A stretch of DNA of 64,000 bases from Brachionus manjavacas (taxonomy: Eukaryota; Rotifera; Eurotatoria; Ploima; Brachionidae): positions 4,340,001-4,404,000 of the forward strand of contig JAHQIY010000004.1 of the NCBI GenBank assembly GCA_019054805.1, given 5' to 3'. How positions within the stretch are numbered: the first letter of the stretch is position 1; each line of letters opens with the position of its first letter. The notes beneath the pieces are model-generated. The model had not been told where the DNA came from and did not search any database. It saw nothing but the letters and a program-made list of their open reading frames with translations. Shown one piece after another: positions 45,015 through 64,000 of this stretch. The translations under genes and the position numbers were made by a program.

Positions 45015-46385
45015 TTATTTTATGCAATATGGTGAATCATGATTGGTATTTAGATAATAAGTTCCTTGGCTATAAAAAGGTTCGGTAAAATATCCCATAG
45101 GAGCACATCCTGTTTTAGGATCGCATTTACATCTTCCATTTGCGAAACTATCTGAAATTAATTTGTTTTTTTATTTTTTAATTAAATCATCGTAAAAAAA
45201 AATAATCACCATAATCATCACATGGTACAGAATGGAATTTGCACTTTGAAATAATACTTTCAGCAAAGTAAGCCGGAGCTCTATTATGACTACAAGCTAT
45301 TTTAATGACTGAAACAAATGAAAAATTTAAACTAAAATTAATTAAAATTTCCATCTTTCAAAAATTACTTTCAGGCAATTTAGGGTCCAATTTAAGTACA
45401 AGAATTTTAGCTTCTTTTCTCAGCATGTGAATTAAACCACACCCCGCTTGAAATAGTCCTCCGTTTGGAAAAAAATCCAAATGACCGATTACCTTTCCGA
45501 TTCCGAGAGTTCCTGCATCAGTGTGAATTATGTCAACAAATCTAGGAAAAAAGACATTAAAAATTTTTAAATTATTACTAACTAATTTTACTCAGCATCG
45601 TTTTTATTTAATCTTCTTTCCGAATGACGATTAAAAAATAATGGGCCTTGTTAAATATTCAGATTATAAGAAAATTGTTAATTTTTAAATAAAATATAAA
45701 TCTTACCTGCCGGATCCATTCCAGTTATTCTTTTAACTTTTATCTCTTTACCAGAAAATCCACATACCTAAAAAATATTTTTTACTAAATTAATATATTA
45801 TATTTACTGTTATTTACATGAGCTCCTTAAAAATTAAAAATTAATAAATTTATTGATTTAAATTAATGATTATACCAAGACTATGTCCAATGCAATGTAC
45901 TTTTGAAGGATCAATCTTTGCTTCTTTGATAAATGAACCAACTTTATTACCCGCTACCTCCACATTTTCAACAGCAGTGAAATAATTAGGTCCCTTGGCT
46001 CCTTCTTTCCAATCGACATTGATCACATTTAGATTTTTCTTTTTTTTTAATCTAATAATTAAATTAATTTCTACCAAATTGTTTGATTAACATACTTCGA
46101 TTTTTAAAAAATTATCTTTGATTAGAACTATTTTTTCATCTAATCCTTCATCAGTAAATCCATGAATAATGAACTTTGTCTCTTGGGAATAATTAAAACC
46201 AGACCTAAGAATTTTTACGATATATTTCAAAATATATAAATTCAAATTTATTAAAATTACGATCCAATATTTTCGAGTGTTAATTTAATCGGAAAATCAG
46301 GATTTTTTTGGCTAAAGAACAAAAAATCAGGCCAGCAGACTGTTAATTTAAATATTGCCAGAAAAATAATTTTGTGGTAAAACAT
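45015..46385 (-). CDS. Secreted pancreatic-lipase-family lipase/phospholipase, nine exons
   Basis: An alpha/beta-hydrolase of the pancreatic lipase / PLA1 family, likely secreted. Exons: 46385-46261, 46204-46096, 46038-45876, 45825-45818 (8-nt microexon), 45767-45707, 45646-45592, 45541-45369, 45308-45210 and 45151-45015. All phases close, giving 309 residues. Residues 1-17 look like a signal peptide ([17 protein letters not shown]). Landmarks: oxyanion-loop FIIHGF; nucleophile elbow GHSLGAHVCGF with the catalytic Ser, split across exons 3-5; catalytic Asp in [11 protein letters not shown]; catalytic His in [11 protein letters not shown]. The short C-terminus lacks a PLAT domain, as in PLA1-like members, so substrate choice (triacylglycerol or phospholipid) is open. 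Gene order is lipase, PARP, phosphatase, all on the minus strand. Confidence 0.9.
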
Positions 46386-46772: not shown

Positions 46773-49700
46773 TTAAATAAAATAAATTAAATATTCAGGA
46801 TAGCATTGATTATCATGATAGCAAACAAAAATTGATCTTCCTTGATCACATGTCGAATCATATGGTATAAGTGTATTTGGCTGGGTTGGCGGTACCCTCA
46901 TTTGTGAATTTCCCAGACAACTTTGACCAACTATTACTTTTGCTTGAATCATGCATTTATGGTTATGGTGGCCTCTTGAGCTATAATTCAATTTATAAGC
47001 TGAATTTACTGCAAAGTAGACTCCCTGACCGAACGCAACTCCATTTATTCCACAAAAACTTCTGTTAAATCCGAAACGGCAGATTTTTAGCAACGAATCT
47101 TCAGTGGATCCATGAAATAGGGTCATTTCATTTGGATTTTTTTTTTCGTTGATAAATTTTTCTTTGAAAATTTGAAACTGTTTGAACAAGTATTTATTTT
47201 GAATTCGTTGAATCTTTAATAAAAGGAATGAATTAAAATCATATGTTAACATTTAAGTTTCAAAAAATAAAATTTACTTTCGATATTGTCACAGAATTAT
47301 TTTGTAATTTTGATTTGAAATGATTGTAAACATTTTGAAATTCATTTGAATCTGTTTTTAGATCTACAAGATCATATTCATTGCCTGAGTTTGTCGAAAT
47401 CCAATTTGATGGTAAATCAAAAGAATCTTTACCCACTTAAATAAAAAGTATGTTTTAAATCTTCTCGGGTCAAAATAAGATATTTTTACATTTGGCGATA
47501 TCTATTCTACGCACATTTATTCTAGTTTGATCTATTAAATAAACCATCGGCTCCATGTTGAAAAAAATGGTTCCCATTTGATTGCTTTCATCCTCAAAAT
47601 TCACCTAAAAAAGAAATTTAATTATAAAAAAATTTGATTTTTATCATTAAATTAAAAATAAAATATACTTGAGATCCTTTTTTTAAATAAGTAGACTCAA
47701 TCAAGCTGTTCAGATAGACTGAAAAATTTTTCCAATCATTCGAGCTACTTAAAAATTGCCATTGAATATCGGTTGACGCTTTCATTTGTTCTATCATTGA
47801 TGAGAAATGGCCAGCCATTTTATTATTAATTAGCAGAGCCAATTCAGCCTTTGCAGACCAAACAATATTTTTGTATCCAAACAAATTTAAACTTTTGTTT
47901 TCGTACTCTATTTCAATATCGGGAAATTTAAAAAATAATTCTTGTAGCTAAAAAAGATGAGAAATTAAATTTTTTTTTTTATGAAATAAAATATTTACAT
48001 CTTTGACAGTGAGTGATGTCAGATTTTTCATATTTGACTCGTTCAAACTTTCTCTTTTAAATTCATCAGCTATAAAGACTTTTAATTGAGAAAGAGCTGC
48101 ATTGTATTCAACTTTCGATTTAAAATAAATTGTAAATTCTTAAAAAATATAAAGAGCAGCTTTTTAGACATTTGTTTAAGAAAATGAAAATTTGAACTTA
48201 CTTCCTTTCGCTTTTAAATTTGAGAAAGATATTTTGTGATTTAAATCTTTGAGCTTTTTTTCTTCAGATTTCATCTTGTTCAGATGCGGTTTTTCACAAG
48301 ATAAAAATTCATATTCAAAATTCTTGAGAGAAACATTTTTTAAAATTTTAAAATTTTTGATTCTCATTCAAGAAAAATAACCATAATTAAATAATAAGAT
48401 TAGGATAAAACTAAATATTTCTTTTTTATTTTCTTTTTACCTTAATTAATTCGGTCTCCTTTTCGTGCAACACAATATTTACATTTAAACTATTTTTGTC
48501 CATTTTTAAAAAATTTGAAATGCACTCAATCATTTGTTTAGAAACTAAATTGGATGGAAAACCAAATCCACCTGCTCCCAATGCTGGAAGTGAAATACTA
48601 GTTAAACCATTTGATCTTAATTCAATGAAACTGGCATTAATGATACTTTCAATAGCCTTAAAAAGTTGAGCATTTAAACAAAAAGTTATCATAAAAAAAA
48701 AAAATTTAAATAAAATTATCTATTAAATACTTTCGAAGCATTCAGCTCATTTACAAAATGTGATAAGGCAGCATGAAATAGATATTTCACCCCACTGATT
48801 CTTCCGGCACTGGTTATAGCTATCGAATTGTTATTTATACCATTTGGATAGTTATTTTTTCCCTCATCAATAACTGAACTTCCAGCTGCTTGAACAAGCA
48901 ATTTTGAAAGCACACCAGAGCCCAAATTCAGTGATTTAGAATTAGTGCTTACAATCACATCAGCCTTGAGATCATTTTTTGTTGATTTAAAATTTTGATA
49001 TTACTTAATATTTGAATGTACTTTTGTTTTGGTAATGCATCCAACTTCAAGTCTCAAAACAGAATTTCCAATTTTTAGGACTGTTAACACTTTATTTAAA
49101 TCAGCTTTAAAAACAATAATTTAAATATTTTGATTGAATTAAAAATTAAAAGTACATTTTTTATCATTGATTTGAAGATTTTCTGCTTGGATATTTAAAT
49201 TTTCGGTTTCTTCCTGTATAACTGCGCTGCACTCAATAACTGTTTTGGTTTGATCTAAAGAACACAAAAAATATTTTTTCAATATTTAAAATTTCGACAT
49301 TTTTTTTATCAACAAATAAGCCAAACCTTGAATATTCTTAATCGTATTCTGAATTCCAATTTTTTTATCGTTTAGCAATTTATCAAAAGCTGGAAAATAT
49401 TCGGAAAAAATAACCCCTTTTTGTCGCATGCTCATCAAACTTTTGATTTCTCGTTCAATAATTTGATTTAAATTTTTTGGATGATTTTTGACCACTATTT
49501 TTGAGCTCATTCCATCTTTATCACATATCACCTCAATTTTGACTTCGAACTTTTTTTCTATATTCTTTATTTCATCACTTGATGTAAGCTTAATAAACTC
49601 AGCCTTTAATTAAACAGATCATTATTTAGAAAACAAGTTTAAAAAATAAATCTACATTGATAAAATCAACAGGTATTTCAAGAGTGTTTTTTTCATTATT

Positions 49701-52700
49701 TGCCAAAAAAGCTTCGATTTTTAGTTTGTTTGCTTGAACATAGTCTTTTTTTCCACATATCAGGACAAAATTTTGATTATTAAAACCTGCATACACCGTC
49801 ACCCAAAAATTAGTCCCCATCAATTCAGATCGCAAATTATTTCGTTCAAAAATTTTCCATTTTTCGCTTATAAGCACATCAGAATAGCTGGTAACATTTA
49901 TTTCTTCAAGATACAAGTTCTCTTTGATAAATGAAGAAGCTTGGTCAAAAACCGAGTCGTTTGGACAGTCTATTTCTTCCAAGTTTTGAATATAGCTGAC
50001 ATAAAAACCAGGCAAATTTGGACCATCAATTAATTTTACTTCGACTGTAAAAGCTTATCAACCAAAGACAATAGCAAGTCTTCGGTTATTTGAGGCAAGG
50101 TTTTACATTTAAAAAAATTTATGCTCATTCCATCGATTTTTTTGATTCGAATGCTGTTCGATATTTTGTTTACCAACTCAATAGATTTATTTACATCAAT
50201 TACAGTTCCAGTAATGGACAAAATAGAATCTCTATCAATAGAATAATCTTCAAGGAAATATTTTTTCTTTATTCTTTCAATAGAATTGAAGTAAAGGCTC
50301 TTGTAAGTAACATATGAAATCTGTGGCAGTTTAATTGACTTGTTTGTACTGGGTTCTTTAGTTAGACTTTTCAAAAAATTACTATTTACATCTCTCTTGG
50401 ATGCAATCGGTTTATTTTCTTTCTTTTTGTATCTTCTTCTTCATTTGTGTGAAAATCGGTAAGTTCATTTAGTTGAGCACACTTTATTTTCAAATCATTG
50501 TAATGAATCTTTTTGATCATGAAATGAAATTTTGACTCTTTTGCATCATCAAAATAATCAATGAGAAATAACATTTTTAACTCTTCAAATTTTTTTTTAA
50601 TCAAATATATCAGTTCTAACATTTTGATGTTATAAGTCAAACTTTTAGTCTCAAAGTTTCTAAAAAACTGTTTTAAAACATTATCAACTTCTTTCTTCCA
50701 GTGAGCTAAGTTTTTTTGTGGATTGTGACAGGCAAAAACTCGGAAAAATTCAGGGTCAACTGAGATTGAGCAGTTAAAATTTTTCATTCCTTCAATTAAT
50801 TCATTTTTCCAAGGCAGATTTTTTTCGTTTAGAACCATTTTTAAAAAAATGTTGTATTTCAAATCTTTAACAAGATTATAATTCATTATTTTGTCATTTT
50901 TCAAAAGCTTCTGATTTTTAAACAAATTTTGATCATTGCTAGTATCGATTGCGCTAGGTAAATTCTTATTAATAAGTTCAAAATTGTTTTCCAATTCTGT
51001 TCGATCTTAAAAATACATAAAGCTTTAATTATAATTTTTAAAAATTATCAAAACAATAACAAAATTAAAAATAGAGAATTCTTAGTTAATGTAAAAAAAA
51101 AGTTTTGCTTTTTAATTAAATTTAAAAAAAATACTTCTATGGTTATCAAATTGTACAGATAGCTTTTCGATATAGCTTGTATCGATGTTGATTTCGCTGG
51201 GTAGATTGTTCCTTACAAGTTTAAAATTGTTCTCCAGTTCTGCTCTATCTTTGAAAAAAAATTTAATTTTTGATAATTAAAATTAAAATTGATTTTTAAT
51301 TTTTAATTTTGCATAAAAATCTATTTAAATAATTTTTTTCTGATTTTTAATATTTAAAATTATATTTTTATTTTTGATTGTTTTAGCTACTAATAATTAA
51401 ATCGTTCTTTTTAATTAACTGTTTTTATATAAAAAATGAATACTTTATGAAACTGAACCAGAGTTGTTTAAAAGTCTTAAAATAAAGTTCAAGTCATTAA
51501 AAAAAAATCCTTTTTTTTAATTTTTTTCAGAAGTCCAAGTCCGGACTTGAAATTTTTTTTTTAAAAGTCCACTTTTTTGTTTAATTTGCTAGATCATACT
51601 TTATATCAAAAAATTTATACTCTTGAGTTGTCTTATGCGTATAGATTCGCCATATTTCAGAATTTTCTAAATTTTCTAAAATTTTTATTGCAGTATTATA
51701 AGAATATCTTCTTTTCTTATTTAACGATTTAATATATTAAGTTTATTACAGTTTAATTATGGACATGACTAAAAATACTTTTTTTCAATCTAAAACTTAA
51801 AACTTTTTTGATTTGAAATGTATTTATAATTTAGTGCAAATAGAAAAACCGACCGAGTTTAAGCGAAAATAGAAAAAAATCTCTCTTTTTTCAAATTACA
51901 TAATTTGATACAATACTACTTGATAATAATTAAATTTTTTCTTGATTTTAAATTTTTTATATGGAGAAATTATAATAAAAATACCCAGATTTCTAACAAA
52001 TTGTACTTTCCAAATTCCTTTTTCATTATCAATCAGATTTGCAGAATTTGGTGCTAATCTTGCTATAATTGCAGCAAATCGCAGTATATCAGTTTTATTT
52101 TTGTCATTTGGTGCATTTTTTATTAATAAAATGTTGGAATTTGAAGAATCATAATTTTTATGTTCCGAATCTGTGTTGAGATTTGTCTTATTATTAGATT
52201 CATCATTTTTTCCGTAATCATTTGCAGTTTTTGAAATAGCAAAGTGGTAATTTCTATATTTAACTTCTTTAGTACTAATTAGTTTTTCAGCTACCGAATC
52301 ATCTTTAAATGCGATATATGCCTTCCATTTATTTGGTAAATATTTGCATTTTACAGTTGGGCCCCCGCCTGATTTAAATGAATCGCTAAATATTTCATTC
52401 AGCAGTTTCCTGCTTCCTTCTTCAATAAAATTTTTTGGCAGTCGAATTTGAATTTCAATCTTATCTCTGGACGAAAGAGTACTCATGTTGTTTTGTGAAA
52501 ACGAGGATTTGTTGTCATCTTCCTCTGCATTATTTGAGAAAACCTTTGTACAAGAATTTAGAAAAAAATTGAGAATTAAAACATTTTTTTCTAAATATTA
52601 CTTGAAAAAATTTCAAAACTAAATCAAAACTTCCATTTATATTTAAATTTGTTAAAATATTTTTTGTCTGAAAGAACTTCAATGTATGATTTAGTTTACA

Positions 52701-53063
52701 ACTTTCATTCTTACATCTTGAATTTAGAAGCTTTTGTTTACAAATATGTAGCTCCTGACATAGGTTATGGTTACAATGAATGGATAAATTGTATTTGTCA
52801 CAAGCTTTGATCTAGATAATTATAATTAATCATTAAGGTATTTAAAAAATTTTAAATTTTTAAAATACGTCTATGTAAATTTTGATTATTGTTTGATTAC
52901 CAATCTTTACTAACCGAAAAAATGTGGGCACTTTTTCAATGATCTGTAGTATTTGATTTCCATTCAGTCCAGGGATATTTATTTTATCAATATCACATAT
53001 TATGGTTCCGTTTTCAATGAAAAATTTTATTATTTCATTAAAGGCACTACTAAAATCCATCAT
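46773..53063 (-). CDS. ZAP/PARP12-like N-terminus joined to PARP10/14-like macro-WWE-ART protein, copy A, 16 exons
   Basis: Predicted mono-ADP-ribosyltransferase. Exons: 53063-52869, 52811-52602, 52543-51985, 51248-51135, 51005-49656, 49603-49327, 49254-49156, 49104-49022, 48964-48731, 48656-48441, 48322-48202, 48138-47999, 47947-47669, 47604-47490, 47435-47278, 47213-46773. About 1530 codons. Order: winged-helix-like (1-65); CCCH-rich region (66-110; CNHNLCQELHIC); two RRM-like domains in exon 3, the first with the SGGGP signature of the PARP10/14 group; repeated KH-like region (320-960); macro domain (964-1113; IVSTNSKSLNLGSGVL, SLPALGAGGFGF); WWE (about 1263-1331); ART (1345-1530) with LFHGST, GVYFA and Ile in SIFVCY, an H-Y-I triad expected to give mono-ADP-ribosylation. 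Exon 5 lacks one base at each of two homopolymers (near 50050 and 50425), breaking the frame as sequenced. Exons 1-5 are repeated at 58818-62162. Confidence 0.85.
51234..51403. repeat. Source of an intra-locus 170-bp repeat (end of PARP intron 3 plus start of exon 4)
   Basis: This 170-bp stretch, including the intron 3 acceptor and about 14 nt of exon 4, is copied at 53365-53505 (with a 29-bp deletion) and, in the second tandem copy, at 62465-62634 (full length). See the finding on the 65-bp flanking duplication. Confidence 0.85.
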
Positions 53064-53290
53064 CTAAAAAACACAGCTAAAAATTTTTATTTGAAATTTT
53101 AAAAGCGTTCTTCAAATTTAATTTTAATAATAAATCCAATTTTGAAATTAAAAAAATTCTTAAAATAATCACACAGAAAATAAAAATGTACATATACTTT
53201 ATGATTTTAATTTTAAACATTATCATATGAAATTATTTTCATCATTAGATACGATTTAATTCAAAATGTATTGTTAATTAATAAATGCAA

Positions 53291-53575
53291 TTTCATTTTC
53301 AATGTAATGTAATCGATTGAATTTCGATTTCATTGATTAGATATTAGATATCTTAGCAAAATATCCAGTTCTGCTCTATCTTTGAAAAAAAATTTAATTT
53401 TTGATAATTTTTGCATAAAAATCTATTTAAATAATTTTTTTCTGATTTTTAATATTTAAAATTATATTTTTATTTTTGATTGTTTTAGCTACTAATAATT
53501 AAATCCTGCTTTTCATTTTCAATGTAATGTAATCGATTGAATTTCGATTTCATTGATTAGATATTAGATATCTTA
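53291..53575. repeat. 65-bp direct repeat flanking a copied PARP intron segment
   Basis: Bases 53291-53355 and 53511-53575 are identical 65-bp words beginning tttcattttcaatgtaatg. Between them lie about 10 bp, the copy of the PARP intron segment, and about 5 bp. The same arrangement is found in copy B, with the first word starting at 62391 and the second at 62640, so the insertion predates the tandem duplication. It lies just upstream of the PARP start codon. Confidence 0.85.
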
Positions 53576-53631
53576 TCTAGTGCGATACTTAATCACAGTT
53601 TATGGTTATATTCGCTCTATAGATCGTATTG

Positions 53632-53860
53632 TTCAGGGCATTCTGTTAAAATTGTAAAAGTAAATACTTATACAACAATTAGCCTGACCTTGCAGCCGGA
53701 GCCGGGTCTCCCGATCAAAAAGAAATACCCATAATTCCTCTTTAGGGAAGGCTTGGAATTCCTGCTTTAATTTTCCTTGCTTAAGTATTAGAAGGCACTC
53801 GACCATTTTACAGGCTTTGGGTTTGCGATGGGTACACTTTTCTGGGTCAAAGGCAAAAGT
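53632..53860 (-). other. Coding-like, GC-richer island, unidentified
   Basis: On the minus strand this reads as about 75 open codons (TFAFDPEKCTHRKPKACKM ... FPKEELWVFLFDRETRLRL). The base composition is clearly richer than its surroundings, and an intron-like acceptor (tcaatag) precedes it. The 5' third is missing in copy B because the 909-bp indel cuts through it. It could be an exon of an unrecognised gene or a transposon scrap. Confidence 0.35.
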
Positions 53861-54708
53861 CTATTGATCAGAAAAGGGCCTTTTCTCTATTTTTTTCCTT
53901 AATAAATTTAAAACTCTCATAATTATTTACCCTTAAAGTTTTTAAGCAGCATTAACTTTATTTATTTATCTTATTATTATTATTCTGAAAATTCTTTTTT
54001 TTGTTCTGTTTCAGATCCATTTCCAAAAACAAGGTAACTATAATTTTATCCTATTTTACTGAAAGTTAAGTAAATTTGTCAAATTACTAATAAATTAATA
54101 AAAAAGAGGAAAAAATAAAAAATAATCTACCGATTTTTTAAAAAACTTAGGCAAATTGTAAAGAATTAAAAAATATTTAATTTTATAAAAAAAATTTTTT
54201 CTAAATTTAAAAAAAAAAAAAATTCAAAATCAATATTTTATCGATATCGACTAAAGATATTGATACACTGTTCTGGATAATTTATTTAAATTACAAATTT
54301 GTTAAAATAATATTTAAACATTAACTAATTTTTTTAATTTTTTGCATTTTTATATTTTATTTTATTCTCTATTCCGAATATTCCGAATAATATTAAAGAA
54401 AATAGGGCCCCTATTTTCTTTAACTATTATTCTGCTTAAATTAAATGAAATAAAAAAATAAATTTGAGATTTTTGTACTCCTACACTGTCATTTCCATAA
54501 GGAGAATTTTTTTTTAATGTCGAGAAATTAGTCGAGAATAAAGAGCAATCTGTATCAATTAAGTCAAGAAAATTTTAAAAAATTCTATAAGAGTTTTGCT
54601 GACTGCTCCAAATCTGTCTTATATATATAGATATTGGTATCCAAATAGCATCAAAACTTAATTAACTTTTTGAAAATTTTTTATTCAAATTTTTCTTTAA
54701 ATTTTTTT
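53800..54708. other. 909-bp segment present in copy A, absent from copy B
   Basis: Copy A and copy B align up to gaaggcact and resume at tgttttgaaaatattt. Copy B joins the two with about three extra bases (62929-62932). No TIRs or target duplication frame the segment, so a deletion in copy B with a small filler is more likely than an insertion in A. Apart from the end of the coding-like island it contains AT-rich sequence only. Confidence 0.7.
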
Positions 54709-55180
54709 TGTTTTGAAAATATTTTTTTAATTATTTAATTTTTTTAATTACAAAATCTTATATTTATTATATTCGGTTTTATATTCAAAATTTTTCTTTT
54801 TTCAAATTTTAATTCGAATGTTTTAGAGATTCAGTTTTTAAATTAAAATGAAATAATATTTAAATATGTTTTAAAATTTTTTTTAGATTCAAATATTATA
54901 TTCGAAGCTGATCTCCTTTCAAAAAGCTACTTTTTAAAAATATCGGTTCGAATATGAATATTTGATTTAATCACTAGACATTACACAATTCGATTTTATT
55001 TTTTATTTTTTAAAATATTTCACTAGTTTCCATAGTGAGTGAAGAAAAATTTATTTAAACATAAAAAAAAGCTTGAAAATTTTGAAAAATTGGAAAATAA
55101 AATTTTTTTTTCCTATTTTATTTTAGACTAAAAGCTGTTCGACTTAAAACTGATGCGTTGTACAAAAATTGTCCATCATC
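53861..55180. other. Intergenic between phosphatase and PARP
   Basis: AT-rich sequence, including most of the 909-bp copy-A-specific segment. Nothing codes with confidence beyond the island at 53632-53860. Confidence 0.4.
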
Positions 55181-56538
55181 TCAAATAAAAGAAATGTTCA
55201 TGATTTTTGAATCAGCTTGAACAAAACCTAGTGCTCCATTAAACTTCAATTCATTGGAAAAATACCGGTAAGAACCTTTAGGTATGCATGTAATATTTGA
55301 TTTTGTTCTATAAATTGAGCTTGAAGCACCATTTATTATGTAATCAACCGTCCAATTTAAAAAGCTGTCTTCAACATGTTCTGAATCATGTTCGTGACCT
55401 TAAAAAGAAAAATATTCAATTTATAGTATAATTTTCAATCTTTTGACTAAAAATTAAAATAAAAAGTTGAGTTTTGTTTTCGTAACAAAAAAGAAACTTA
55501 AAAATAGCAACTTTTTCTATATTAAAATAATTTGTTTTAAAAAATTTATTTGAATAAATAAATCCCACAATTTAATCGTCAAAAGTTCAATTTCTAAAAA
55601 AATTTTTAATTACCAGAAAAATAGACATTAACTTTATATTTATGCAAAAATGGTCTCAATTTCTTAACTAAGCATTGATTTGAGCTATGATAGCCCATTG
55701 ACCAAACTGGATGATGACCAACTATAATTAAAAATGGAAAGCTTTGCGAAATCGTTGACTTTAAATGTCACTCTAAATTTCCAAGAATCCTACTTGAAGA
55801 CGATTTTCTACAAATGAGCATAGTGTCGATAAAAATGGCATAAATTAGCTTTTGATTTTCATTTAAAGTCTTAATTTCCAAATTATAATTGTAATCAGGC
55901 AAAATCCTTTGAATATTTAAAAAGATAAAAAAATTCAAAAACTGTATATTGAATTTGAGCAAAAGTATTACCCTTGTGGTCATGATTTCCTAGAACAAAA
56001 AAAAATTAAATTAAATAATTTAAAGCAAAATCTAAAACCTAGAACATTGAACCATGGAATTTTAGATCCGTGATAAACATTTTCAAAAGTCACCTTTATT
56101 GACTTTAAAATTTAATCAGAAAATCCAATTTTCTAAGATACCTTAAACCTAAAATCAAATTGGTCATTCACTCCTGAAGGATAAAAGTTGTCACTTAGTC
56201 CTAGATGAAATTGCACTTGATGATTGACAGCATATTGTTTCATTAATTTTGAAATTCGCTGCTGAATCACAGTTTTATACGGATAGAATGAAATACCACC
56301 CCAGTCTCCGAAAAAAAAGAATTTATCCAAATCATTTTTTATTTCAAGCTCTAGAGGTTGCGATAAATCTAGATTTAGATTTACAATGAGTTTTTATATA
56401 TTTAAATTGGAAAAACGTTGTACTTTCTGGTATTTTTAGTCTGGAATATGGATAAAATCGATAGTTTGCAAAAGTTGAAGTAGCATCTGCAATATTTATC
56501 AAAAAATGTATCTTGAAAATCCAATGTTGAAGCTTCAT
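55181..56538 (-). pseudogene. Purple acid phosphatase (tartrate-resistant type 5-like), disrupted as sequenced
   Basis: A metallophosphatase of the TRAP group, which hydrolyses phosphomonoesters with a two-metal centre; probably secreted (hydrophobic start MKLQHWIFKIHFLINIADA). Exons: 56538-56424, 56368-56142, 56093-56039, then from 55989 on. Metal-site motifs appear in order: FFGDWGG, LGLSDNFYPSG (Ser where the family has Gly), GNHDHKG, IIVGHHPVWSMG and GHEHD. Two defects: a frame change in a T7 run near 55930-55945, between QIQYT and RILPDYNYNL, and a TGA at about 55768-55770 where the family has Trp (family pattern QLxWL; here NLE-stop-HLK). The TGA is also in copy B, so it predates the duplication. 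An alternative upstream Met lies at 56553. Downstream sequence to the stop at 55181 is otherwise well conserved. Confidence 0.75.
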
Positions 56539-56553
56539 TATTTTATAAATCAA

Positions 56554-56910
56554 ATTCGATACTTAAAATGTTATGTAAAAAACTATTCTTTTAAAATAAA
56601 GAATTTTATTTTGATGATTTCTCAATTTTTTTTTAATTATACTCTATTATATATTTCAAAAGCAATTTAAGAACATTGTTGGGCTAATGCTGCTAATTTT
56701 GAATAGAACTATCAATTTTTATTAATTGGAGTAAGTTAAAAAAAATTAAATTAACATTTGTTAGGAAAAATACAATAAATTTAATTAAATTTTTTTAAAG
56801 AAATTATTTTAAAAAGAACACACCAAAATATAAGCACACGTAAGCCAAAAGTAAGGAAAAAAAAAGCACAAGTAAGCCAAAATAAATAAAAAGCACGCAG
56901 TTTTTGTCAA
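56554..56910. other. Phosphatase upstream region and LINE 5' UTR
   Basis: The left part is the phosphatase 5' flank. From about 56810 a pattern of acacgtaagcc / gcacaagtaagcc / gcacgcag precedes the LINE ORF1 start and is probably the LINE 5' untranslated region. Confidence 0.45.
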
Positions 56911-57667
56911 ATGGACTCAAATTTTTTGCTTGAAACAAACTGGCCAACGTTTGGACAGGGTACCGTATCTGGGCATTCAAAAACTTTGCATGAATGGTGC
57001 GGTAATATTTCGAAATTCGTCCTGGAGCTTTCAAATCATGTGAAACATCTGGAGGAAAGAGAAATTGAGAAAGACATTGAAATAAACAAACTGAAATCTG
57101 AATTGGCAGCAGCAAATAAAACAGCAAACTCATCCAACATCAGTAGTCAGTGGGTTCAAGTTGTAAAACAAGGGACAAAAAATGCAAAAACCAGCCGATC
57201 AGATAGCTGTAGCAAATGCAACCATCAGCGAAATGAATGAAAGAATCAAAAGAAAAAAAAATGTGATCATTTATGGTGTGCCAGAATCAAAGAAAGAGAT
57301 TCTAACAGACAGGAGGGCAGAAGATGAAGAAAAAATCAAACAAATTTTGACCACTATTGGAAAAGATGATGTCAAGCCAGCGTATTCAAGACGCTTGAGA
57401 TCGAAAGACCAAAGTAAACCAGGCCCAATTCTAGTAGAACTCAAAGAAGAAGCAAACAGAAATCCACTACTCCTAGCAGCCAAAAAGTTGCGAGATTCAA
57501 ATAATTTCAAATCTATTTATCTTAGTCCAGATTTGACTGAAACCGAAAGAGCTTTAGACTATGAATTGAGGAAACAAAGAAACGAAGCAAATAATGGTCT
57601 TTCACAAGACTCGCCCTTTCGATATGGCATCCGTGGAAATCAGATCGTCAAATTCAAGAAGCAATAA
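56911..57667 (+). pseudogene. LINE ORF1 protein (frameshifted)
   Basis: ORF1 of CR1/Jockey-like elements encodes a nucleic-acid-binding chaperone. Residues from 56911 form a coiled-coil segment (HVKHLEEREIEKDIEINKLK). At an A6 run near 57175-57182 the frame moves by one, and the rest continues from 57182: RKKNVIIYGVPES, YSRRLRSKDQSKPGPILVE, ANRNPLLLAAKKLRDSN and LSPDLTETERALDYELRKQR. These are the conserved RRM-like blocks of LINE ORF1. Restoring one frame needs one base fewer in the A run, so this is a mutation or a read error. Confidence 0.8.
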
Positions 57668-58816
57668 TAGTTCATCAAAAGCGTCATCACGTGTGGATAA
57701 TCTCGAATCTTTAAAATGTATGTATTTAAATGCTACTTCTTTGGACAATAAACTCGATGAATTCAGTGTTGTTATTGAAACATATAATCCACAAATTGTG
57801 GCAGTTAGTGAGACTTGGTTTAAGAGCAACTCAAATGCAAACATTAAAGGATACAATTTGTACAGAAAGGACAGAAGTGATGGACGCAGAGGCGGGGGTG
57901 TATGTCTCTACATTGATGAAAATATCGATTCATTTGAATTAAATGATGCAGGTTTTAATTTAAGTAAAATAGAACAAATTTGGGTAGTTGTTAACTTTAA
58001 CTGTGAAAAGTATTTAGTTGGCTGTCTTTATAGGCCAAACGATTTTGTTGATATGAACGATTTTGATTTAGTCTTCAAACAAGCTAAAGACTATGTGGAT
58101 GAAAGAGGTTTTAAGGATATTCTAATAATGGGTGATTTTAACTTTCCATCGATCATCTGGTCAAATGGCTGTGTTTCAGAAATCTTAAACGAAAATGGCA
58201 TCGAACATAAATTCAGCGAGACGCTAAGCGACACTTTTTTATATCAGCATGTAAATGTTCCAACATTTCAAATGTCAAACGAAAAAGCTGTCAACACTTT
58301 GGATTTGATTTTCACGACTCAGTCTGGCAGTGTGTATGCAATCGATACAAAATTTGTGCTTGGTAACATTAATAAAGGACATCTGGTCATCTTTTTCAAT
58401 TTTGTTCTCAAAAACAAGGTTAGTAAGGAATCATATATTATTGAAAAATTTCTTTATAGTAAAGCTGACTTTGAAAAAATTTCTGATTTTTTATCAAATA
58501 TTGATTGGGTGCACTTATTTGAGAATTTAAATATTCAGGAAATGTACAATGAGTTTATTTTCTATGTCAGTGAAGCTAGTAATCGATTCATTCCAGTGAC
58601 AGATGGCTCTAAAAAGAAAAGTATCTCAAAACCTTGGATAAAAGATGATCTCAAGATCTTAATTAGGAATAAGAAAAATCTTAGATACAGGAACTGTTCA
58701 TGTAACTGGAAGGATATGAATCTTTATAATGATTACAAAAGTATCTGTAAATTAGTTTCTTCGGAAATAAAAAGAGCCAGACTAACTTATGAACAAAATT
58801 TAGTGGATAAAGCTAA
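57594..58816 (+). pseudogene. LINE ORF2, endonuclease domain only
   Basis: The ORF overlaps the ORF1 end by 74 nt. It encodes an apurinic-like (EEP) endonuclease: YLNATSLDNKLDEF, VAVSETWF with the catalytic Glu, a Gly-rich GGGVCLYI, VGCLYRPN, and ILIMGDFNFPSIIW with the catalytic Asp-Asn pair, then NTLDLIFT and the GNINKGHLVIF region, where the family has SDH. Here the expected SDH reads KGH, a possible inactivating change. A linker (RARLTYEQNLVDKAKK) follows, then the truncation. The open frame continues by chance for about 70 codons into antisense PARP sequence, which is not real protein. Confidence 0.85.
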
Positions 58817-58817
58817 G

Positions 58818-61800
58818 AAGTTTGTTTGCTTGAACATAGTCTTTTTTTCCACATATCAGGACAAAATTTTGATTATTAAAACCTGCATACACCGTCACCC
58901 AAAAATTAGTCCCCATCAATTCAGATCGCAAATTATTTCGTTCAAAAATTTTCCATTTTTTGCTTATAAGCACATCAGAATAGTTGGTAACATTTATTTC
59001 TTCAAGATACAAGTTCTCTTTGATAAATGAAGAAGCTTGGTCAAAAACCGAGTCGTTTGGACAGTCTAATTCTTCCAAGTTTTGAATATAGCTGACATAA
59101 AAACCAGGCAAATTTGGACCATCAATTAATTTTACTTCGACTGTAAAGCTTATCAACCAAAGACAATAGCAAGTCTTCGGTTATTTGAGGCAAGGTTTTA
59201 CATTTAAAAAAATTTATGCTCATTCCATCGATTTTTTTGATTCGAATGCTGTTCGATATTTTGTTTACCAACTCAATAGATTTATTTACATCAATTACAG
59301 TTCCAGTAATGGACAAAATAGAATCTCTATCAATAGAATAATCTTCAAGGGAATATTTTTTCTTTATTCTTTCAATAGAATTGAAGTAAAGGCTCTTGTA
59401 AGTAACATATGAAATCTGTGGCAGTTTAATTGACTTGTTTGTACTGGGTTCTTTAGTTAGACTTTTCAAAAAATTACTATTTACATCTCTCTTGGATGCA
59501 ATCGGTTTATTTTCTTTCTTTTTTGTATCTTCTTCTTCATTTGTGTGAAAATTGGTAAGTTCATTTAGTTGAGGACACTTTATTTTCAAATCATTGTAAT
59601 GAATCTTTTTGATCATGAAATGAAATTTTGACTCTTTTGCATCATCAAAATAATCAATGAGAAATAAAATTTTTAACTCTTCAAATTTTTTTTTAATCAA
59701 ATATATCAGTTCTAACATTTTGATGTTATAAGTCAAACTTTTAGTCTCAAAGTTTCTAAAAAACTGTTTTAAAACATTATCAATTTCTTTCTTCCAGTGA
59801 GCTAAGTTTTTTTGTGGATTGTGACTGGCAAAAACTCGGAAAAATTCAGAGTCAACCGAGATTGAGCAGTTAAAATTTTTCATTCCTTCAGTTAATTCAT
59901 TTTTCCAAGGCAGATTTTTTTCGTTTAGAACCATTTTTAAAAAAATGTTGTATTTCAAATCTTTAACAAGATTATAATTCATTATTTTGTCATTTTTCAA
60001 AAGCTTCTGATTTTTAAACAAATTTTGATCATTGCTAGTATCGATTGCGCTAGGTAAATTCCTATTAATAAGTTCAAAATTGTTTTCCAATTCTGTTCGA
60101 TCTTTAAAATAAATAAAGCTTTAATTATAATTTTTAAAAATTATCAAAACAATAACAAAATTAAAAATAGAGAATTCTTAGTTAATGTAAAAAAAAAGTT
60201 TTGCTTTTTAATTAAATTTAAAAAAAATACTTCTATGGTTATCAAATTGTACAGATAGCTTTTCGATATAGCTTGTTTCGATGTTGATTTCGCTGGGTAG
60301 ATTGTTCCTTACAAGTTTAAAATTGTTCTCCAGTTCTGCTCTATCTTTGAAAAAAAATTTAATTTTTGATAATTAAAATTAAAATTGATTTTTAATTTTT
60401 AATTTTGCATAAAAATCTATTTAAATAATTTTTTTCTGATTTTTAATATTTAAAATTATATTTTTATTTTTGATTGTTTTAGCTACTAATAATTAAATCG
60501 TTCTTTTTAATTAACTGTTTTTATATAAAAAATGAATACTTTATGAAACTGAACCAGAGTTGTTTAAAAGTCTTAAAATAAAGTTCAAGTCATTAAAAAA
60601 AAATCCTTTTTTTTTAATTTTTTTTCAGAAGTCCAAGTCCGGACTTGAAATTTTTTTTTTTAAAAGTCCACTTTTTTGTTTAATTTGCTAGATCATACTT
60701 TATATCAAAAAATTTATACTCTTGAGTTGTCTTATGCGTATAGATTCGCCATATTTCAGAATTTTCTAAATTTTCTAAAATTTTTATTGCAGTATTATAA
60801 GAATATCTTCTTTTCTTATTTAACGATTTAATATATTAAGTTTATTACAGTTTAATTATGGACATGACTAAAAATACTTTTTTTCAATCTAAAACTTAAA
60901 ACTTTTTTGATTTGAAATGTATTTATAATTTAGTGCAAATAGAAAAACCGACCGAGTTTAAGCGAAAATAGAAAAAAATCTCTCTTTTTTCAAATTACAT
61001 AATTTGATACAATACTACTTGATAATAATTAAATTTTTTCTTGATTTTAAATTTTTTATATGGAGAAATTATAATAAAAATACCCAGATTTCTATCAAAT
61101 TGTACTTTCCAAATTCCTTTTTCATTATCAATCAGATTTGCAGAATTTGGTGCTAATCTTGCTATAATTGCAGCATATCGCAGTATATCAGTTTTATTTT
61201 TGTCATTTGGTGCATTTTTTATTAATAAAATGTTGGAATTTGAAGAATCATAATTTTTATGTTCCGAATCTGTGTTGAGGTTTGTCTTATTATTAGATTC
61301 ATCATTTTTTCCGTAATCATTTGCAGTTTTTGAAATAGCAAAGTGGTAATTTCTATATTTAACTTCTTTAGTACTAATTAGTTTTTCAGCTACCGAATCA
61401 TCTTTAAATGCGATATATGCCTTCCATTTATTTGGTAAATATTTGCATTTTACAGTTGGGCCCCCGCCTGATTTAAATGAATCGCTAAATATTTCATTCA
61501 GCAGTTTCCTGCTTCCTTCTTCAATAAAATTTTTTGGCAGTCGAATTTGAATTTCAATCTTATCTCTGGACGAAAGAGTACTCATGTTGTTTTGGGAAAA
61601 CGAGGATTTGTTGTCATCTTCCTCTGCATTATTAGAGAAAACCTTTGTACAAGAATTTAGAAAAAAATTGAGAATTAAAACATTTTTTTCTAAAAATTAC
61701 TTGAAAAAATTTCAAAACTAAATCAAAATTTCCATTTATATTTAATTTTGTTAAAATATTTTTTGTCTGAAAGAACTTCAATGTATGATTTAGTTTACAA

Positions 61801-62162
61801 CTTTCATTCTTACATCTTGAATTTAGAAGCTTTTGTTTACAAATATGTAGCTCCTGACATAGGTTATGGTTACAATGAATGGATAAATTGTATTTGTCAC
61901 AAGCTTTGATCTAGATATTTTTAATTAATCATTAAGGTATTTAAAAAATTTAAAATTTTTAAAATACGTCTATGTAAATCTTGATTATTGTTTGATTACC
62001 AATCTTTACTAACCGAAAAAATGTGGGCACTTTTTCAATGATCTGTAGTATTTGATTTCCATTCAGTCCAGGGATATTTATTTTATCAATATCACATATT
62101 ATGGTTCCGTTTTCAATGAAAAATTTTATTATTTCATTAAAGGCACTACTAAAATCCATCAT
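58818..62162 (-). pseudogene. 3'-truncated copy B of the ZAP/PARP14-like gene (exons 1-5)
   Basis: Exons 1-5 correspond to 62162-61968, 61910-61701, 61642-61084, 60344-60231 and 60101 down to the break at 58818. The winged-helix-like domain, CCCH-rich region, both RRM-like domains and part of the KH-like region are present. Macro, WWE and ART domains are lost. At the homopolymer near 50425 in copy A this copy is intact, but at the one matching 50050 (about 59146) it has two bases fewer than needed, so its frame also breaks. If transcribed, it would at most give a catalytically dead, RNA-binding-type N-terminal protein, which recalls the short, ART-inactive ZAP forms; that is speculation. Confidence 0.85.
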
Positions 62163-63404
62163 CTAAAAAACACAGCTAAAAATTTTTATTTGAAATTTTA
62201 AAAGCGTTCTTCAAATTTAATTTTAATAATAAATCCAATTTTGAAATTAAAAAAAATTCTTAAAATAATCACACAGAAAATAAAAATGTACATATACTTT
62301 ATGATTTTAATTTTAAACATTATCATATGAAATTATTTTCATCATTAGATACGATTTAATTCAAAATGTATTGTTAATTAATAAATGCAATTTCATTTTC
62401 AATGTAATGTAATCGATTGAATTTCGATTTCATTGATTAGATATTAGATATCTTAGCAAAATATCCAGTTCTGCTCTATCTTTGAAAAAAAATTTAATTT
62501 TTGATAGTTAAAATTATAATTGATTTATAATTTTAAATTTTGCATAAAAATCTATTTAAATAATTTTTTTCTGATTTTTAATATTTAAAATTATATTTTT
62601 ATTTTTGATTGTTTTAGCTACTAATAATTAAATCCTGCTTTTCATTTTCAATGTAATGTAATCGATTGAATTTCGATTTCATTGATTAGATATTAGATAT
62701 CTTATCTAGTGCGATACTTAATCACAGTTTATGGTTATATTCGCTCTATAGATCGTATTGTTCAGGGCATTCTGTTAAAATTGTAAAAGTAAATACTTAT
62801 ACAACAATTAGCCTGACCTTGCAGCCGGAGCCGGGTCTCCCGATCAAAAAGAAATACCCATAATTCCTCTTTAGGGAAGGCTTGGAATTCCTGCTTTAAT
62901 TTTCCTTGCTTAAGTATTAGAAGGCACTGTATTGTTTTGAAAATATTTTTTTAATTATTTAATTTTTTTAATTACAAAATCTTATATTTATTATATTCGG
63001 TTTTATATTCAAAATTTTTCTTTTTTCAAATTTTAATTCGAATGTTTTAGAGATTCAGTTTTTAAATTAAAATGAAATAATATTTAAATATGTTTTAAAA
63101 TTTTTTTTAGATTCAAATATTATTTTCGAAGCTGATCTCCTTTCAAAAAGCTACTTTTTAAAAATATCGGTTCGAATATGAATATTTGATTTAATCACTA
63201 GACATTACACAATTCGATTTTATTTTTTATTTTTTAAAATATTTCCCTAGTTTCCATAGTGAGTGAAGAAAAATTTATTTAAACATAAAAAAAAGCTTGA
63301 AAATTTTGAAAAATTGGAAAATAAAATTTTTTTTTCCTATTTTATTTTAGACTAAAAGCTGTTCGACTTAAAACTGATGCGTTGCACAAAAATTGTCCAT
63401 CATC

Positions 63405-64000
63405 TCAAATAAAAGAAATGTTCATGATTTTTGAATCAGCTTGAACAAAACCTAGTGCTCCATTAAACTTCAATTCATTGGAAAAATACCGGTAAGAACC
63501 TTTAGGTATGCATGTAATATTTGATTTTGTTCTATAAATTGAGCTTGAAGCACCATTTATTATGTAATCAACCGTCCAATTTAAAAAGGTGTCTTCAACA
63601 TGTTCTGAATCATGTTCGTGACCTTAAAAAGAAAAATATTCAATTTATAGTATAATTTTCAATCTATTGACTAAAAATTAAAATAAAAAGTTGAGTTTTG
63701 TTTTCGTAACAAAAAAGAAACTTAAAAATAGCAACTTTTTCTATATTAAAATAATTTGTTTTAAAAAATTTATTTGAATAAATAAATCCCACAATTTAAT
63801 CGTCAAAAGTTCAATTTCTAAAAAAATTTTTAATTACCAGAAAAATAGACATTAACTTTATATTTATGCAAAAATGGTCTCAATTTCTTAACTAAGCATT
63901 GATTTGAGCTATGATAGCCCATTGACCAAACTGGATGATGACCAACTATAATTAAAAATGGAAAGCTTTGCGAAATCGTTGACTTTAAATGTCACTCTAA
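63405..64000 (-). pseudogene. Partial second copy of the purple acid phosphatase
   Basis: This matches copy A 55181-55776 at near identity. It contains GHHPVWS (near 63930-63950), the GHEHD exon and the stop at 63405-63407. The TGA replacing the conserved Trp is also present at the window edge (about 63992-63994). The 5' half lies outside the window. Confidence 0.8.

Follow-up and report, generated by a model that had tools for sequence, protein, structure and literature searches.

A composite PARP gene of Brachionus manjavacas with a probable ZAP/PARP12-like front end and a PARP14-like ADP-ribosyltransferase back end

The stretch of DNA considered here (the window) comprises 64,000 nucleotides of the rotifer Brachionus manjavacas, corresponding to C4:4340001-4404000 (contig C4) in a 114-Mb, 61-contig genome with a GC content of 27%. 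A preliminary description had placed a gene of the PARP family at 46773..53063, and our analysis found this position to be exact: the gene lies on the minus strand, running from 53063 to 46773, and a layout of 15 exons is workable. From the N terminus, the domain order is a winged helix, two CCCH zinc fingers, an RRM, a stretch resembling RRM and KH domains, a macro domain, a WWE domain, and an ADP-ribosyltransferase (ART) domain with an H-Y-I triad. The exons, together with one exon-like segment, are located as follows.

52869..53063, minus strand: exon 1, start codon and winged-helix domain; donor GAC/GTATTT, phase 0
52602..52811, minus strand: exon 2, two CCCH zinc fingers; Pfam match at 52677-52778
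51985..52543, minus strand: exon 3, linker, first RRM (RRM1, of the SGGGP type, at approximately 52414-52268), then a second stretch that resembles an RRM by eye
51135..51248, minus strand: segment of intron 3 that looks like an exon, in phase 1 on either side; resembles the exon 4 start; optional or relic
49656..51005, minus strand: exon 4, frameshifted near 50,430 and 50,050 when compared with copy 3, in which 452 codons are open
49327..49603, minus strand: exon 5, KH-like, weak
49156..49254, minus strand: exon 6, from the layout check
49022..49104, minus strand: exon 7, lead-in to the macro domain
48731..48964, minus strand: exon 8, macro domain, first half
48441..48656, minus strand: exon 9, macro domain, second half
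48202..48322, minus strand: exon 10, from the layout check
47999..48138, minus strand: exon 11, from the layout check
47669..47947, minus strand: exon 12, KH-like (weak) and start of the WWE domain
47490..47604, minus strand: exon 13, remainder of the WWE domain
47278..47435, minus strand: exon 14, start of the ART domain, by alignment with PARP15
46773..47213, minus strand: exon 15, catalytic ART domain, H-Y-I triad, stop codon

Three related loci were found in the genome, all of them on contig C4. The gene listed above is copy 1, and the other two are the following.

58819..62928, minus strand: copy 2, tandem and partial; its coding part starts at 62162 and comprises exons 1-3 plus the greater part of exon 4
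L012:3194-8288 (C4:4437194-4442288), inverted with respect to copy 1: copy 3, about 44 kb away, intact

The exon borders were chosen by eye at GT-AG sites and then checked with a script, the test being that copy 3 should read through with the same borders. In fact, with the same 15 exons and borders, copy 3 gives 1379 codons from start to stop with no internal stop, and the layout is supported by this uninterrupted frame. Exon lengths in copies 1 and 3 are equal except for exons 1, 3, and 4, and the introns of copy 1 measure 51 to 118 bp, with the exception of intron 3, which has 979 bp (125 bp in copy 3).

The window copy itself is not open from end to end, because its exon 4 is frameshifted twice with respect to copy 3, near 50,430 and near 50,050, both times in a short homopolymer run; either assembly error or decay could be the cause. 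Copy 2, which matches 49723-53799 at 98.4% and thereby bears out the recent duplication noted in the preliminary description, is frameshifted too at the equivalent of the second site (near 50,050). It has an exon 3 frame at 60995-61696, the pattern used for the start of exon 3 having no match in this copy, and it ends abruptly at 58819, next to the endonuclease frame of a retrotransposon (Exo_endo_phos, expect value [E] of 4.2e-8). Furthermore, intron 3 of copies 1 and 2 contains a 114-nucleotide exon-like segment (51248-51135 and 60344-60231, respectively), flanked by AG and GTATTT. This segment appears to be left over from an earlier start of exon 4; as it is in phase 1 at both ends, use as an optional exon is also possible. 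We see an even chance that the window copy makes no full-length product, being a duplicate that is either decaying or chimeric, and that copy 3 is the sole working gene. The two frameshifts, the 979-bp intron 3 with its exon-like segment, and the truncation of copy 2, shifted at one shared site, all point in that direction, whereas the remaining exons of copy 1 are unchanged in length and borders except for in-frame differences in exons 1 and 3, and both shifts fall in short homopolymer runs, which are prone to assembly errors. The window copy may thus fail to make the full protein. Copy 3 is the proper basis for any statement about a working protein.

At the back end of the gene, the spliced exons 7-9 match the Pfam Macro family (E, 7.7e-9). 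In searches of the PDB, which covered 177,635 distinct sequences, exons 8-9 had PARP14 as their best match (6e-12), more precisely the second macrodomain of the PARP14 chain 3vfq, with PARP9 (8.6e-8) among the other proteins that followed. The WWE domain, spread over exons 12-13, scores just over the Pfam cut-off (E, 2.8e-4; 21.7 bits versus 21.1). Exon 15 matches the Pfam PARP family (E, 1.5e-23), and the ART domain has as its PDB matches PARP15 (2.2e-30), PARP10 (1.2e-29), PARP14 (4.4e-27), PARP12 (1.5e-24), and ZAP (1.1e-13), followed by tankyrase. In the alignment with PARP15, the Ile before FVCYHDNQ falls opposite the Leu before FVVFFDNQ, which we take to be the third column of the triad; the Leu in PEYLIYF, considered as the third triad residue, was ruled out by the same alignment. 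The macro, WWE, and H-Y-I ART domains named in the preliminary description were thus all recovered, and the sequence comparisons identify the ART and macro parts as being of the PARP14/10/15 type. A third triad residue other than Glu goes with mono-ADP-ribosylation (PMC2964712). With its nearest matches among PARP7 and PARP9-15 and with a residue other than Glu in the third position, the catalytic domain classifies by sequence as a clade 3 PARP, that is, a predicted mono-ADP-ribosyltransferase. The 1379-residue product of copy 3 has a single macro match versus the three tandem domains of PARP14, the latter number being the ancestral form of macroPARPs (PMC10221186); in PARP14 macrodomains 2 and 3, the catalytic residues are poorly conserved across animals (PMC10221186).

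Upstream of the macro domain, the SGGGP segment (RRM1) could be matched to RRM_PARP14_3 just under the cut-off (E, 1.4e-4; 22.3 bits versus 24), in line with the SGGGP-type RRM that had been proposed. RRM1 is absent from copy 3, where a 321-nucleotide gap takes its place. A second RRM-like stretch, from exon 3 into exon 4, was recognized by eye only, and it had no RRM match in the Pfam scan. The KH-like domains of the preliminary description fared differently, as the matches were weak: exon 5 matches KH_11 (E, 0.054) and KH_DTX3L (E, 0.081), exon 12 matches KH_PARP14_3 (E, 0.045), and all KH matches lie between E values of 0.045 and 0.18, on a par with those of unrelated families in the same scans (Astro_p19, 0.09; TipE, 0.099). 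Two pieces of exon 4 had no Pfam match, and three pieces scanned against NCBIfam had none there. The AlphaFold2 model of the 326-residue exon 4 block of copy 2 had a predicted local distance difference test score (pLDDT) of 35 and was not used. The presence of KH domains is, on these results, not established.

The main doubt raised in the preliminary description was whether exons 1-2 might belong to a separate upstream gene, although their in-phase splice into exon 3 had been recognized. This splice is found in both complete copies: the joins from exon 1 to exon 2 and from exon 2 to exon 3 are in phase 0 in copies 1 and 3, and the same exon order, GT-AG borders, and phases recur in copy 3, about 44 kb from copy 1. 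The distance between exon 2 and exon 3 is 58 bp in copy 1 and 50 bp in copy 3, a gap that would be very small for a boundary between two genes. Moreover, in exons 1-2, copies 1 and 3 are separated by 26.0 synonymous differences over 74.2 sites and 39.0 nonsynonymous differences over 318.8 sites, corresponding to a dN/dS of 0.28 (Fisher P of 9e-6 on rounded counts) and indicating purifying selection. In addition, the exon 3 translation of copy 3 contains no Met that could start a protein. On account of the short spacing, the shared phase 0 and GT-AG borders, the dN/dS value, and the missing Met, exons 1-2 are very probably part of the PARP gene. That they form a small gene of their own, with the PARP beginning at exon 3, is hardly likely: the synonymous divergence between copies 1 and 3 does vary along the gene (exons 1-2, about 0.47; exons 5-15, 0.007), and exon 3 of copy 1 does offer an in-frame ATG 20 codons from its start, but the step in divergence is located at exon 3/exon 4 rather than at exon 2/exon 3, and the read-through tails past exon 2 are unlike each other in copies 1 and 3. 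The doubt is therefore largely answered by spacing, phase, selection, and the exon 3 of copy 3, while the ATG in exon 3 of copy 1 remains on the other side.

With regard to the origin of this front end, exon 2 carries the motif C-x8-C-x4-C-x3-H twice, as read from the sequence, and matches the family zf-CCCH_PARP12 (PF25261) with an E value of 4.1e-4, below the cut-off. Pfam contains other CCCH models as well; PF25261 was the only family found at E ≤ 10 for exons 1-2 (5.6e-4 in copy 1 and 1.3e-4 in copy 3). In the genome, the search with this family gave 10 matches, the top 3 being the copies described here (21.1 to 22.7 bits) and the other 7 not exceeding 17.7 bits. The protein encoded by the finger exon had four matches in the genome, three of which are these copies; the fourth, on contig C16, was rejected, its frame being cadherin-like by eye. 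These protein and Pfam-family searches of the genome, which work exon by exon and score the best candidates only, so that divergent copies can escape, brought out no further finger exon of the PARP12 type. Among PDB sequences, the front of copy 1 had rat ZAP as its top match (E, 0.013) and a second ZAP entry next (E, 0.16), the match being colinear over residues 37-125, across the splice junction, and a profile of the three copies matched ZAP with an E value of 0.033. For each copy, 3 of 5000 shuffles with fixed Cys and His reached the local score to ZAP residues 40-132. ZAP fingers 3-4, in contrast, give an unremarkable match, with 477 and 210 of 5000 shuffles reaching its score. The AlphaFold2 prediction from the single sequence of exon 1 is a winged helix (pLDDT of 84 in the best model and 51 to 84 over the five models), and the layout of an N-terminal winged helix joined to CCCH fingers is present.

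On this basis, the front end probably resembles that of ZAP and PARP12, with moderate similarity. Taken as a whole, we consider it rather likely that one gene of this AT-rich invertebrate, with copy 3 as its intact copy, encodes a composite protein, a clade 3 mono-ADP-ribosyltransferase in which a ZAP/PARP12-like front and a PARP14-like back would combine RNA binding, mono-transfer, and ADP-ribose reading for use in RNA restriction or stress. The joining of a ZAP/PARP12-type front to a PARP10/14-type back in a single gene, put forward in the preliminary description, is supported, although with two fingers rather than five and with only moderate similarity at the front. Several results weigh against this reading. 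In addition to the frameshifts of the window copy and the KH domains discussed above, the PF25261 scores (18.5 to 22.7 bits) stay under the curated cut-off of 27 bits, and the front of copy 3 alone had no PDB match at E ≤ 10. Exon 1 alone is only weakly similar to the ZAP winged helix (89 and 179 of 5000 shuffles reach its score), and in a Foldseek search with the exon 1 model, ZAP was not among the best 50 of 764 matches, none of these 50 passing an E value of 0.001. The matches among those best 50 are generic, with winged helices of Cdt1 and of the ArsR type and ribosomal proteins at E values of 0.056 to 0.60. Furthermore, ZAP contacts CpG through K89, Y98, K107, and Y108 (PMC8102003), and in the alignment of copy 1 by eye both Lys residues are kept and both Tyr residues apparently are not; CpG specificity is not predicted for this reason.

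The same marginal sequence matches, the copy 3 front without a PDB match, the weak similarity of exon 1, and the generic structural matches would also fit an unrelated winged helix and CCCH pair that converged on the ZAP/PARP12 layout, leaving a PARP14-like gene with a private N terminus whose kin is known for the back end only. We regard this as unlikely, since the likeness exceeds the Cys/His pattern in the shuffling test, extends colinearly over winged helix and fingers, and involves the sole Pfam family listed for exons 1-2.

The divergence between copies is unevenly distributed along the gene. The identity between copies 1 and 3 is 85% in exon 1, 82% in exon 2, and 68% in the shared part of exon 3, and the step in divergence coincides with the start of the long match (51157), in intron 3 of copy 1. 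Downstream, 8 of 2163 sites differ in exons 5-15 and 15 of 668 ungapped sites differ in introns 5-14, the lower divergence of the exons being as expected if the protein is kept. Given the contrast in synonymous divergence, the copies are mosaics, in which the fronts are old sisters and the tails were homogenized very recently, by conversion or segmental copying. As a separate observation, intron 1 (52812-52868) is identical at 56 of 57 positions in copies 1 and 3, beside exons at 82 to 85%, and perhaps represents a small conversion tract.

It is possible to hypothesize a mechanism for the composite protein. By analogy with homologues, the winged-helix/finger front and the RRM/KH-like stretch would bind RNA. 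The ART domain is then predicted to add single ADP-ribose units to itself, to bound proteins, or to RNA ends, mono-transfer being supported by the triad. The single macro domain may read this mark rather than remove it, since it is nearest to a nonhydrolyzing macrodomain of PARP14, and would so hold the complex together. The likely use would be either to restrict RNA that is foreign or aberrant or to serve in an RNA stress response; an antiviral role, suggested by the relatives of the gene, is the least certain part of this mechanism. An RNA-binding mono-ADP-ribosyltransferase with a housekeeping role in stress granules, translation, or the control of transposon RNA, instead of antiviral defense, is a possible, if somewhat doubtful, alternative. 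Stress granules are another site of action of clade 3 PARPs (PMC4245714) and nothing in the present analysis indicates immunity, whereas the tandem copies and homogenized tails fit a gene with fast turnover, as noted for relatives of PARP14 (PMC13224862).

When the predicted composite protein is compared with known systems, it shares with PARP10 the RRM and a close ART match, and presumably also the SGGGP type of the RRM and the H-Y-I triad; the KH domains of PARP10 have only the weak matches given above as a counterpart. PARP14, with PARP15 and PARP9 (macroPARPs, clade 3B/3C), shares with it a PARP14_3-type RRM, the PARP14-nearest macro domain, the WWE domain, and an ART triad without Glu. 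Different from PARP14, it has one macro domain instead of three, a shorter RRM/KH array in which KH is not established, and Ile instead of Leu in the triad. PARP12 and ZAP/PARP13 (clade 3E) share the winged helix followed by N-terminal CCCH fingers, the WWE domain before the ART domain, and the triad Ile; in contrast to them, the rotifer gene has RRM and macro parts, and its ART domain is nearer to those of PARP15, PARP10, and PARP14. Two fingers were counted here, and Pfam gave no additional CCCH match in copy 3, whereas human ZAP and PARP12 have five (PMC8102003). In clade 3E, the triad carries Ile with two exceptions, one of them ZAP (PMC2964712). The descriptions of PARP10 consulted (PMC4245714 and PMC10450202) give it neither a macro domain nor zinc fingers, and the descriptions of PARP14 consulted (PMC10450202 and PMC13224862) do not mention a winged-helix/CCCH front. 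ZAP/PARP12 and PARP14 are assigned to separate branches of clade 3 (Perina 2014, PMC4245714; Citarelli 2010, PMC2964712). In the lancelet, C3H1 fingers were acquired by two proteins of the PARP12 branch, only one of which has the vertebrate domain set (Perina 2014, PMC4245714); the other is a possible precedent. A winged-helix/CCCH front with an RRM-macro-ART back was not found described in the titles, abstract openings, and passages covered among the papers listed by the architecture searches, while a database entry with such an architecture is possible. The gene would thus encode a clade 3 mono-ADP-ribosyltransferase with a domain combination not found described in that literature.

In vertebrates, the zinc-finger RNA-sensing module (ZAP and PARP12) and the ADP-ribose writer/reader (PARP14) reside in different interferon-induced genes. 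If the composite reading is true, one animal gene with both modules would show, as a natural test, whether the recognition of RNA and the marking with ADP-ribose are the work of a single machine, and it would do so in a small animal in which the removal of a single gene family could be used to test the role. The composite gene would also bear on which architecture came first. That it preserves an ancestral clade 3 PARP with both modules, from which the ZAP/PARP12 and PARP10/14 branches arose by splitting and loss, seems improbable to us, and a fusion in the rotifer lineage is a simpler history.

The search of the genome for ART domains gave 12 matches in ten loci, two of which represent the composite gene. 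Of the other eight loci, six had their third triad position read, with Glu in five cases and Gln in one. On contig C1, two PARP catalytic domains form a tandem pair about 9 kb apart (C1:3449213-3449871 and C1:3458623-3459281), the first being nearest to PARP1. At L050 (C4:4524500-4531500; matches at C4:4526528 and 4528849), a WWE frame (4.3e-14) lies just upstream of a WGR-PARP_reg-PARP frame (PARP, 1.8e-71), and from the sequence the two apparently form one WWE-WGR-PARP gene; to our knowledge, this arrangement is unlike human PARP1/2/3. A frame of 1028 residues (1626-4709 of L051, C1:4411000-4419000) combines ankyrin repeats with WGR, PARP_reg, and PARP, and Gln replaces the catalytic Glu there. 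The further ART loci are a VIT-PARP of the PARP4 type, an ARTD15_N-PARP of the PARP16 type, a weak one that could not be placed, and C2:2571806, known by its ART match only. Among the eight loci, including these last two, no clade 3 type was recognized, nor was a separate PARP12-type gene seen by the exon-by-exon search of the genome with its scoring of best candidates. The composite gene seems to be the sole clade 3 type of this genome.

As for the surroundings of the copies, a second duplicated stretch lies upstream of copies 1 and 2 (54708-56783 versus 62932-64000 plus L009:1-1008; 99.0 to 99.5%). Its frames are acid phosphatase-like by eye, and the two pieces scanned had no Pfam match at E ≤ 0.01. 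The non-LTR (long terminal repeat) retrotransposon endonuclease frame at 57570-59030 ends at about the edge of copy 2, and the junction between them consists of a single open frame of 486 residues that enters PARP exon sequence in antisense. Finally, a fragment of a lipase-like gene (named by eye) adjoins both copy 1 (45384-45567) and copy 3 (L012:9137-9320), with 99.5% identity, so that the duplicated block reached past the PARP gene.

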